From positions 62,001 to 126,000 of the forward strand of contig NZ_MPNT01000003.1 of NCBI RefSeq assembly GCF_001907675.1: a stretch of 64,000 nt of DNA, given 5' to 3'. Of this stretch, positions 1,638 to 13,824 are shown one piece after another (within the stretch, counting starts at the first letter, position 1; every line of letters begins with the position of its first letter). Both the position numbers and the translations under genes were made by a program. The notes beneath the pieces were generated by a model. That model was given only the letters and a program-made list of their open reading frames with translations, was not told where the DNA came from and did no database searches. The stretch comes from Mycobacterium paraffinicum. GTDB lineage: Bacteria > Actinomycetota > Actinomycetes > Mycobacteriales > Mycobacteriaceae.

Positions 1638-1668
1638 GTTCAGTTCGTTAATGGTTAATTAACTGAAA
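1638..1668. promoter_or_regulatory. Candidate MarR operator 1
   Basis: AT-rich imperfect palindrome with outer arms TTCAGTT and AACTGAA and a core of TTAATG then GTTAA. It begins 35 bp upstream of the marR start and stands out from GC-rich surroundings. It aligns base for base with the sites at 1745 and 13795. MarR proteins typically bind such dyads over the promoter of their own gene. Confidence 0.65.
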
Positions 1669-1744
1669 TGGACTTTCGGCGACGGCCGTGCCGGGAGTGC
1701 GAGTGGCCAAGGCGGCAGCACTGCGACTGGCGAACCGAGAGTCA

Positions 1745-1774
1745 TTTCAGTAAATTAATGTTTAAGTTATTGAA
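1745..1774. promoter_or_regulatory. Candidate MarR operator 2 / crt promoter region
   Basis: Second copy of the palindrome, sharing TTTCAGT, ATTAATGTTTAA and TTGAA-type arms with the other two. It matches the idi2-tspO copy at 25 of 30 positions. It lies about 150 bp upstream of the crtE start. The AT-rich core could itself contain the -10 element, which would give the crt transcript a leader of roughly 150 nt. Nothing else gene-like was seen between 1775 and 1912. Confidence 0.65.
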
Positions 1775-1925
1775 GGTGATGGGAAGTCGTCCGAGGCTGG
1801 GAAGGGCCGATCGGAGCGGGATCGCGGCGGCGGAATCGCCGGTTTTCGCCTCCGAACAGCGGTGATCACCGCGTGCGTTTGAGCCGTCTCAGCCTGGGAA
1901 TGCCAAGCCGTCCAGGAGGGAGCGC

Positions 1926-3056
1926 GTGGCCAAGATGGGTGCATTGTCGTTGACGCCCGCCACGGAGTCGCCGGCGGCTGCCGCGGACTGGCCGGGCAGC
2001 GCCCCCTTCGACGAGTGGCGCTCGAGCGTGCGGTACGGCGTCCTCGCGCTGCTCGGGCACTTCGTCGAACCCCGACGCTCCCAGTTGGACGACACTCGCG
2101 TCGACGCCGCCGGCGACATCCTGATGGCGTTCGCCTCGGGCGGCAAGTGCCTGCGGTCGACGTTCATGTACCTGGGATGGCTCTGCGGTGCCGCGCCCGG
2201 CGAGGCGGCGCTGCGGGCAGCGGCCAGTTTCGAGCTGCTGCACGTGTTCGCGCTGCTGCAGGACGACGTCATGGACGGTTCGGCCGAACGGCGGGGGCGT
2301 CCGTCGGCGCACCTGCAATTCGCCCAATGGCACCGCGAACGCGGGTTATCCGGCTCGTCAGCGCGGTTCGGTGAGTCGGCCGCCATCCTGCTGGGTGACC
2401 TCTGCCTGATCTGGTCGGAGCAGATGCTGCGCGAGAGCGGTGTCGATGCCCGGCGGTTGCAGCGGGCCTGGCCCCGCTACGACACCATGCGCACCGAGCT
2501 TGCGTTGGGTCAGTTCGCCGACCTGACCAGCGATGTGCGGCGCATGCCCACCCTGGACGCCGTGCTGGACGTCGCCCGGCGCAAGTCGGGCAACTACACG
2601 GTGCGGCGGCCGTTGGAGATCGGCGCGGCAATGTCCGATTGCGACGACCGGACGCTGAGCCGACTCGGCCGCTACGGCGCCGCCATCGGAGAAGCCTTCC
2701 AGCTTCGCGACGACGTGCTCGGCGTCTTCGGCTCACCGGCGATCACCGGGAAGCCGGCTGCCGGAGACCTCTTGGAGCGCAAGGCAACCAGCGTCGTGGT
2801 GGCCGCTCACCAGCTGGCCGATCCGCGCACCCGGACCGAACTGACCGAGCTGATGAACGGCCAGTCCCTTGACGACGACGCGCTCGCCGGGTGCAAAGCG
2901 CTGATCGCGGCGACGGGGGCGGTCCAGATGATCGAGCAGATGATCACCGACCGGGTCGCGGCCGCGCGCGAACACCTCGACGGCACATCGATCGACGAAC
3001 CCGTTCGCGCCGCGCTGGCCGAAATGGCGGCCGCCTGCACGGATCGCGCCGAATGA
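1926..3056 (+). CDS. crtE: Geranylgeranyl diphosphate synthase
   Basis: Trans-isoprenyl diphosphate synthase of 376 aa making the C20 precursor GGPP for phytoene synthesis. The first aspartate-rich motif is DDVMD (residues 113-117) and the second region reads RDDVLG (near residue 261). The GGKCLRS motif (71-78) matches the diphosphate-binding GKR-type segment. The GTG start at 1926 is set by GGAGGG five bases upstream (1915-1920). It is the first gene of the carotenoid operon, with crtI 27 nt downstream. Regulation is probably by the divergent MarR protein through the sites at 1638 and 1745. The family is certain, and the C20 product is inferred from context. Confidence 0.93.
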   Translation: MAKMGALSLTPATESPAAAADWPGSAPFDEWRSSVRYGVLALLGHFVEPRRSQLDDTRVDAAGDILMAFASGGKCLRSTFMYLGWLCGAAPGEAALRAAASFELLHVFALLQDDVMDGSAERRGRPSAHLQFAQWHRERGLSGSSARFGESAAILLGDLCLIWSEQMLRESGVDARRLQRAWPRYDTMRTELALGQFADLTSDVRRMPTLDAVLDVARRKSGNYTVRRPLEIGAAMSDCDDRTLSRLGRYGAAIGEAFQLRDDVLGVFGSPAITGKPAAGDLLERKATSVVVAAHQLADPRTRTELTELMNGQSLDDDALAGCKALIAATGAVQMIEQMITDRVAAAREHLDGTSIDEPVRAALAEMAAACTDRAE

Positions 3057-12618: not shown

Positions 12619-12629
12619 GTCGCGCGCGG

Positions 12630-13777
12630 CTATGGGACGGGAGTCAGGTCGACGGCGCGCAGGCCGGAAAGGCTTGCGGCGCCACAGCCGTGCAGGCAGA
12701 CGCGGAGTTCATCGATGAACGGCTGCAGCCAATCGACGACGGCGGCAGCCGAATCGATCGCTGCCGGCAGCAGGGGACGAGCCACCGCCACGGCATCGGC
12801 GCCCAACGCGATCGCCTTCGCCGCGTCCATACCGGTACGGATCCCGCCGGAAGCCACCAGCGGAATGCCCGGCAGCACCTCACGCACCTCCACGATCGCC
12901 TGCGCCGTCGGGATGCCCCAGTCGGCCAGATGCGGATACCGCAGCTCGCCGTAGCGGACGAGTTGCTCGACCCGCGACCACGAGGTGCCGCCGGCGCCCG
13001 CGACGTCTATGCCGGCGACCGGCAGATCCCCCTCGGCCCCAACCAATTCCGCGGCGGCCGCGCCGCCGATGCCGTGGCGGCCGCGCCGCCGATGCCGTGG
13101 CCGACCTCCTTGAGCAGCACGGGGCAATCTATCGCGTCGGCCGCATCCCGCAGCCGGGCCAACGAGCCCGAGAAGTCGGTGTCACCGTTGCGCTGGATCG
13201 CTTCCTGCAACGGATTGGTGTGCACCGCAAGCGCATCGGCGCCCACCCGGTACAGGGCCTTCACCAGATCGGGAACGGCGGCCTTGGTCAGTTGGGCCAG
13301 CCCGATGTTGCCGAACAGCAAGACATCCGGGGCGACATCACGCACCGTGAAGCTTCCCGCGGCCCGCTCGCCCAGCGCGCTGTCCAGCATGATCCGCTGC
13401 GAGCCGAGCATCATCCCGATGCCGAGCTCTTGAGCGGCCGCGGCCAGATTCCTGTTGATGGTCCCCGACAACTCGGCGCCGCCGGTCATCGCGCCGATCA
13501 GGACAGGGAAGCATAGGTCCGCGCCGAAGAATGTGGTCGACAGGTCGATGTCATCGAGGCTGGTCTGGGTCAGGGCGTTGTAGGGCAACTGGTAACGCTC
13601 CAGCCCGGTGGTCACATGCTCGTAATTGACCGGCTCGGCGAGGCACACGTCGATGTGCCGCCGCTTGCGGCTGGTCATCGGCGCCCGATCTGCCGTCACG
13701 GCAGGCACCCCGGCGCGACGACGCCGCACCCGCTCGCATCCATAATGTCCATAGTGCCCCTCATTGGGTACCGCCAA
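12630..13777 (-). pseudogene. idi2: Type 2 isopentenyl diphosphate isomerase, frameshifted
   Basis: FMN-dependent isomerase (Fni/Idi-2) interconverting IPP and DMAPP. The N-terminal part ([50 protein letters not shown]) is read in one frame. The C-terminal part ([36 protein letters not shown]) is read in another. The break coincides with a perfect 23-bp tandem duplication (13054-13076 and 13077-13099). Removing one copy would restore [17 protein letters not shown] in frame and a normal enzyme of about 350 aa. The start is 13678 (MTSRKRR) or 13777. As written the gene is disrupted. The MEP pathway makes both IPP and DMAPP, so loss could be tolerated. A sequencing error is the alternative. Confidence 0.85.
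13054..13099. repeat. Perfect 23-bp tandem duplication inside idi2
   Basis: Two adjacent identical 23-bp units, 13054-13076 and 13077-13099, each beginning GCGGCCGCGCC and ending GATGCCGTG. Because 23 is not a multiple of three, the extra copy shifts the idi2 frame. Short perfect tandem repeats are substrates for replication slippage, so the change could be reversible. Confidence 0.9.
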
Positions 13778-13794
13778 TGTGCAACGGTGAGTAA

Positions 13795-13824
13795 TTTCAG
13801 TTGATTAATGTTTAACATACTGAA
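13795..13824. promoter_or_regulatory. Candidate MarR operator 3 (idi2 / tspO)
   Basis: Third copy of the island palindrome, with arms TTTCAGT and ACTGAAA (the last A is 13825) and core ATTAATGTTTAA. It lies between the idi2 start (18 or 117 bp away) and the divergent tspO-photolyase genes. It matches the copy at 1745 in 25 of 30 bases. The AT-rich block is out of character with the surrounding DNA. Confidence 0.65.

Follow-up and report, generated by a model that had tools for sequence, protein, structure and literature searches.

A 29-bp TTAA-centred dyad, candidate operator of CrtR-type regulators, precedes carotenoid and photolyase genes in Mycobacterium paraffinicum and its relatives

A 64,000-nt stretch of the Mycobacterium paraffinicum genome (NCBI RefSeq assembly GCF_001907675.1, contig NZ_MPNT01000003.1, positions 62,001 to 126,000 of the forward strand; hereafter the window) contains a carotenoid (crt) gene cluster, two MarR-family regulator genes and, beyond them, genes for a type 2 isopentenyl diphosphate (IPP) isomerase, TspO and a photolyase (Table 1). 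Three copies of an AT-rich dyad, TTCAGT-N3-TTAA-N3-TTAA-N3-ACTGAA, a unit of 29 bp with 20 fixed positions, lie among these genes, and the TTAA-N3-TTAA core is present in all three. A loose half-pattern allowing ≤3 mismatches gave six matches in the window, which are the three dyads on both strands, against an expectation of 0.01 from 100 dinucleotide shuffles, while a search for the full dyad at ≤6 mismatches found no fourth place within the 64 kb. The dyads are 17–28% GC in surroundings of 64–66% (67.7% for the whole window), and every one of the 25 lowest-GC 29-mers of the window overlaps a dyad. An earlier, sequence-only reading of this DNA had described three near-identical AT-rich palindromes standing out from GC-rich DNA; both points are borne out, with coordinates right within 1–2 bases and the symmetric unit now defined as 29 bp. 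The same reading had the palindromes framing the carotenoid island, and this does not hold: the sites lie close to putative promoters rather than marking borders, and the framing is incidental to which promoters end the island.

Table 1 Dyads and neighbouring genes in the window (candidate roles are predictions).
Feature	Position	Strand	Description
Site 1	1639..1667	.	20/20 fixed positions matched; 35 nt upstream of the crtR1 ATG
Site 2	1746..1774	.	19/20 fixed positions matched; 151 nt upstream of the crtE GTG
Site 3	13796..13824	.	20/20 fixed positions matched; between fni/idi2 (-) and mmpL2 remnant-tspO-phr (+)
crtR1	1109..1603	-	MarR-family regulator, divergent from crtE, candidate binder of the sites; Pfam MarR_2 and MarR above cut-off
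crtE	1926..3056	+	First gene of the crt cluster, predicted target; polyprenyl synthetase domain
crtI, crtB, lycopene cyclase, methyltransferase, desaturase-like and Rieske/DUF5914 genes	3084..9448	+	Downstream of crtE
marR2 (CrtR2)	10790..11371	+	crtR1 paralogue, 52% identical to crtR1
fni/idi2	12630..13777	-	Type 2 IPP isomerase, frameshifted
mmpL2 remnant	13837..14053	+	N-terminal start and C-terminal end only; ~1.9 kb missing relative to locus L104
tspO	14054..14532	+	In frame with the mmpL2 start codon (open reading frame 13837-14532)
phr	14536..15864	+	Deoxyribodipyrimidine photolyase; predicted target via a putative promoter at site 3

Pfam scores of both regulators exceeded the curated cut-offs (PF12802 at 50.7 bits for CrtR1 and 49.8 bits for CrtR2; PF01047 at 38.8 and 37.4 bits), the crtR1 start at 1603 having been chosen from the sequence and from relatives. 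A PDB sequence search with CrtR gave no match at 1e-6, and NCBIfam gave neither protein a family at 1e-10. The organism of the window is close to Mycobacterium sp. E1747 and E183 and to M. scrofulaceum E3039, their CrtR proteins sharing 94–95% identity. The crtR-crtE intergenic region was aligned for 26 rows, of which 18 were used (the window and 17 relatives) and eight omitted, as crtR was not beside crtE or the row was distant. Both dyads appeared as conserved islands amid drifting sequence, with site 1 degraded in one relative (L013). In an environmental relative, Mycolicibacterium frederiksbergense (L022), crtR is adjoined by a site with 2 mismatches.

At the other end of the cluster, 12 nt separate site 3 from the start codon of mmpL2, a gene with an internal deletion, and close relatives such as L104 have an intact MmpL gene of 699 aa between this site and tspO. 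The third dyad had been placed between idi2 and tspO/photolyase; the position stands, with the amendments that the gene immediately downstream is the deleted mmpL and that idi2 is frameshifted. As tspO continues the reading frame set by the mmpL2 start codon, a longer TspO fusion protein might be produced. The frameshift in fni/idi2 arises from a 23-bp tandem duplication at ~13053-13098, of which L104 has a single copy; it may be either a genuine mutation or a fault in the assembly. Relatives such as L094 and L102 carry extra DNA at window ~10455-10660 with a fourth, more diverged dyad (TTAATTNNNTTAATATTTAAGTTACTGA-like) preceding an open reading frame (ORF) that by eye resembles a short-chain dehydrogenase/reductase or epimerase gene; this site is missing in the window.

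The genome-wide occurrence of the motif was counted in relatives of the window's organism. All of the 25 CrtR-bearing genomes searched, which had been reached through CrtR, contained it, at 1–5 copies each with ≤3 mismatches, and a reversed-pattern control in the same genomes gave no match in 23 and one match each in two. In a sample of 148 genomes drawn from the genus, 59 contained the motif at ≤2 mismatches (reversed control, 0/148), and a CrtR-type MarR homologue (E ≤ 1e-15) in 100. All 59 motif-bearing genomes were among the 100 with CrtR, and none among the 48 others (Fisher 2e-14, uncorrected for kinship). Random occurrence across the genome, the outcome that would have counted against the sequence-only reading, was thus not what the relatives showed. 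A second count, anchored on CrtR and so independent of the motif, covered 98 of the 100 CrtR-positive genomes, with G108 (a broken fragment) and G113 omitted. A ≤4-mismatch site was present within 300 bp upstream of the best CrtR gene in 70 of the 98, and in 58 of these 70 it lay 9–58 nt from the CrtR start. Together these distributions support the view that the motif tracks a MarR protein of the CrtR kind.

Genes behind the sites were tabulated over distinct regions from a pool of loci, some retrieved for holding the motif and others for CrtR or phr. At ≤4 mismatches, a site was found upstream of mmpL2 in 69/76 regions, crtE in 41/43, crtR1 in 58/69 and fni in 30/47, the last chiefly where fni faces mmpL2 or tspO. 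Genes labelled marR2-like, a label that mixes both CrtR clades, had a site in 25/76, and tspO in 3/27, all three without mmpL2. Genes internal to the operons hardly ever had one (crtI 1/42, crtB 0/42, phr 0/53), the sole crtI case being L158, where crtR1 adjoins crtI. Since divergent neighbours share sites, with mmpL2, crtR1 and fni often served by one physical site, the pooled counts are not independent; the sites comprise 119 distinct strings overall. Motif-blind counts of gapped words in the upstream regions of 32 more-distant mmpL2 and 43 crtE genes ranked TTCA-N5-TTAA/TTAA-N5-TGAA first. The spacing to mmpL2 is also conserved: among 45 distinct regions in which mmpL2 is ~68% identical or more, 37 have 11–12 nt between the end of the dyad and the mmpL2 start.

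The association with the photolyase operon was followed through several rearranged loci. Genomes G038, G110 and G094 have the published M. kansasii gene order (crtE-I-B...mmpL-crtR-fni). In these, mmpL2-tspO-phr is a separate locus, on a different contig or at a distance of 2.5 Mb, and is preceded by a 3-mismatch site; their crtE sites have 4–6 mismatches. In G078, G171, G174, G233 and G248, assigned to the same group solely on the similarity of CrtR or mmpL2, the mmpL2 site has 3–6 mismatches. G053 and G021 lack mmpL2 and carry a perfect site directly before tspO-phr. In G072, mmpL2 is reduced to a 46-residue match, and in G040 the site and phr are only 692 bp apart. In genome G147, where neither CrtR nor crtE gave a match, mmpL2-tspO-phr is present and the site is missing. 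Among the 80 loci L198-L277 are 48 in which crtR faces mmpL2 and the fetched flanks contain neither a crt gene nor a nearby phr, so the MmpL gene may be the older target.

Two further arrangements were seen among the relatives. A variant dyad built largely of TTAA tetramers (TTAAGTTGGTTAACGTTTAATTAACTTAA-like) occurs at position 4001 of L078-L086, in at least nine of the 25 CrtR-bearing genomes. By Pfam, the variant is followed by an MmpL gene in L078 and by a polyprenyl synthetase-MmpL pair in L085, and the reading of L082 and L086 was at ORF level; the variant possibly marks a further CrtR target. In L198 (G098) and L199 (G093), phr is immediately preceded by a crtR1-type gene of the same orientation. 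No dyad stands before crtR in either, and in L199 a 3-mismatch site follows closely after phr.

Position weights were taken from motif-selected sites, 75 before mmpL2 and 42 before crtE, in all of which positions 17, 18 and 20 are invariant. Beyond this, each kind of site shows additional conservation on one side. The mmpL2 sites keep G8 in 74/75, within TTGATT at positions 7–12, and have AATRCT at 29–34; these two elements plausibly form a -35/-10 pair with a 16-nt spacer. The crtE sites instead keep TAARTT at 6–11, in the left half of the dyad, with a conserved CTGGC(G) 18 nt upstream, which are plausible as -10 and -35 elements, respectively. In either arrangement, a bound repressor would cover the promoter. 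The site can be read as four TTAA-like tetramers (TTCA, TTAA, TTAA, TGAA), some variant sites having four TTAA and several decayed sites retaining one half; two 13-bp half-operators would fit two dimers. Just before the crtE start, at window 1877-1901, lies a conserved GTTT-N15-GGGAAT resembling the SigF promoter consensus GTTC-N17-GGGTAT given in PMC12632256. Downstream of site 2 there may thus be a further crtE promoter that depends on SigF.

We consider it highly probable that the dyads are operators of CrtR-family regulators. We infer that CrtR binds the TTAA-centred 29-bp site at the promoters of crtR1, the crt operon and the mmpL-tspO-phr operon, probably also covering the fni promoter where fni is the divergent neighbour, and that in the bound state it keeps these promoters off. 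An inducing condition would then release CrtR and switch on carotenoid synthesis, TspO and photolyase together; judging from M. kansasii and Corynebacterium glutamicum, the inducer would be light acting via a small-molecule ligand. One switch may thereby run both the pigment genes and the photorepair operon in related mycobacteria. The sequence-only reading had suggested one regulator for precursor supply, pigment synthesis, tailoring, TspO and photorepair. The motif does link the pigment operon, TspO and photolyase, as well as the isopentenyl isomerase where fni is divergent; the single regulator has to give way to two CrtR paralogues as candidates. The target set also changes: the tailoring genes at 3084..9448 would be covered only as putative members of the crtE operon, if this is one operon, and a frequent predicted direct target is the MmpL transporter gene, which is broken in the window.

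Several observations weigh against this proposal. Of the 98 best CrtR genes, 28 have no ≤4-mismatch upstream site; nine of these come from the ten genomes with CrtR2 (the fni-side type) only, and several others show a decayed dyad copy at the same position. No site was found for 17 of the 47 fni genes, nor does marR2 have one of its own in the window. Sites are weaker in some loci, with 3–6 mismatches at mmpL2 among eight M. kansasii-like or related genomes and 4–6 at crtE in L264, L265 and L267. A few motif copies have no evident link to targets, for example on G017 C76, G013 C517 and G020 C51. Finally, a scan with the strict sigma-70 consensus detected no promoter at the sites, and the promoter positions are for this reason put forward as plausible assignments.

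A midpoint-rooted tree of 130 CrtR sequences consists of two clades with full support. The CrtR1 clade has 86 rows, of which 56 are divergent from mmpL2, and the 44 rows of the CrtR2 clade lie near fni or crt genes and include crtR of the M. kansasii-like loci. A crtR1 gene beside and divergent from crtE is found in the window and in a further 22 rows of the tree, one of which carries the label crtI. All but one of these 23, window included, form a single nested set (100/97), suggesting that crtR1 was relocated to crtE; L154 alone is placed outside this set, and its placement is weakly supported (80/78). In L272 (G144) a stop codon interrupts the crtR1 copy next to crtE, and the intergenic dyad and an open crtR2 remain.

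The stretch S-x-x-A-I-T-Y-L-V/A-D-R, which we take to be the DNA-binding helix, is very similar in both clades. Genomes G067 and G146 have a CrtR2-type gene only and keep 0-mismatch sites before mmpL2, and G054 and G126 have CrtR1 only and also keep sites. The similar helices and the retention of sites in single-paralogue genomes indicate that both CrtR proteins probably read the same operator. It is conceivable, though we think it unlikely, that the paralogues split the duties, with CrtR1 acting on mmpL2-tspO-phr and on itself, CrtR2 acting on crtE and fni, and the shared site being ancestral with no cross-regulation. Such a division would suit the different gene neighbourhoods of the two clades, as well as the differences between crtE and mmpL2 sites at positions 7–9 and 25; it is at odds with the helices and the single-paralogue genomes just described, and with the window group, where crtR1 is now located at crtE with the sites between them.

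Another protein associated with the cluster might bind the sites, such as a B12-dependent LitR/CarH regulator, a redox regulator or the AT-binding Lsr2. Lsr2 typically targets AT-rich islands within GC-rich DNA, and the dyads are islands of this kind. Their fixed spacing and low copy number (1–5 per genome), their occurrence only alongside CrtR in 59/59 genomes and their position 9–58 nt from the CrtR start in 58/70 cases nevertheless make this very improbable. For crtR1 and marR2, Pfam returned MarR only, and a LitR/CarH-type MerR domain with B12 binding was not among the matches. Against another binding protein stands also the agreement of the TTAA core with the requirement reported for C. 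glutamicum CrtR (PMC5401885). Hardly credible is a repeated mobile or structural element around the island (a palindromic repeat or terminator hairpin), a reading already disfavoured: it would explain three near-identical inverted repeats within 12 kb, but not the limit of five copies in each of 25 related genomes, the conservation of arms and core with diverging flanks, or the placement of the dyads upstream of genes. Searches aimed at such elements, which covered two stretches for terminator-like sequences and window 1-20000 for Rfam families, gave no match, and the terminator and structured-RNA readings were rejected, as was a repeat element on the copy number per genome.

A wider scheme built on the CrtR operator is put forward tentatively. 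CrtR might be the master regulator of a genus-wide photo-oxidative regulon, its original target being the divergent MmpL gene, whose product perhaps exports the inducing isoprenoid or the photoproduct of that isoprenoid. Pigment, IPP isomerase, TspO and photolyase genes would have gained the operator later, and the regulator would have been duplicated, with one copy moving next to crtE in the scrofulaceum-like group, to which the window belongs. Photochromogenicity is among the classical characters by which mycobacteria are classified. If the proposal is true, pigment, membrane transport, TspO and DNA photorepair would be joined in one circuit. A defined operator makes CrtR control of the photolyase operon directly testable, and allows sequence-based prediction of the regulon in other mycobacteria.

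The CrtR regulator family itself is already known, and repression of crt genes by CrtR is established in M. kansasii and C. glutamicum (PMC9861118, PMC5401885, PMC6739363); the new parts are the operator, the photorepair link and the paralogue story. No paper on an operator of mycobacterial CrtR was found in the open-licence literature, and the accessible parts of PMC12632256 and PMC7755587 give none. The candidate operator is thus apparently undescribed, in line with the sequence-only reading, to which no description of such a motif was known; it is widespread in the genus, and its predicted targets form a coherent light-defence set.

Comparisons with known systems are drawn from the available text of the cited papers. 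LitR/CarH resembles the proposed system in the light-responsive control of carotenoid genes, and differs in being a B12-based regulator of the MerR family (PMC6739363), whereas the window proteins are of the MarR family. The MarR-type gene of C. glutamicum CrtR is divergent from crtE, the CrtR operator there contains TTAA, and CrtR represses crtE and its own gene; it is clustered with mmpL and, in some species, with idi and photolyase genes, and the carotenoids are light-inducible (PMC5401885, PMC7432914, PMC6739363). TTAA is required in the site (PMC5401885), geranylgeranyl pyrophosphate (GGPP) interferes with binding (PMC5401885, PMC7432914), and CrtR mediates light induction, with phrB there not largely affected by light (PMC6739363). 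The authors of that study suggested that the neighbouring resistance-nodulation-division (RND) exporter may remove the CrtR ligand, and in their tree mycobacterial CrtRs form a separate branch (PMC6739363). The published C. glutamicum regulon differs in comprising the crt operon, crtR and possibly a neighbouring gene (PMC5401885, PMC7432914, PMC6739363). Its site is also different, which is one more point against our proposal: a TTAA-containing motif of 15–19 bp is described, not a 29-bp dyad with TTAAs 7 bp apart, and only TTAA is common to both. Our claim is accordingly limited to a CrtR-type regulator and does not extend to the C. glutamicum operator.

In M. kansasii, CrtR is a mycobacterial MarR repressor of crtE, mmpL1 and fni, all three being up-regulated in a crtR transposon mutant (PMC9861118). 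By gene order, this crtR matches marR2 of the window and not the MarR gene beside crtE, and the words "motif", "palindrom" and "TTAA" are absent from the main text of that paper. The authors describe the role of CrtR beyond carotenoid-metabolism genes as unknown, which leaves the photolyase locus open (PMC9861118). In M. kansasii, 20 min of light induced 14 genes, including five crt genes, mmpL1, crtR, fni and phrB-tspO-mmpL2 (PMC9861118), and a single CrtR circuit would fit the small size of this response. The last three are the same kinds of gene as those at site 3, and nine of the 14 light-induced genes (five crt, fni and three of the photolyase locus) correspond to genes behind the sites described here.

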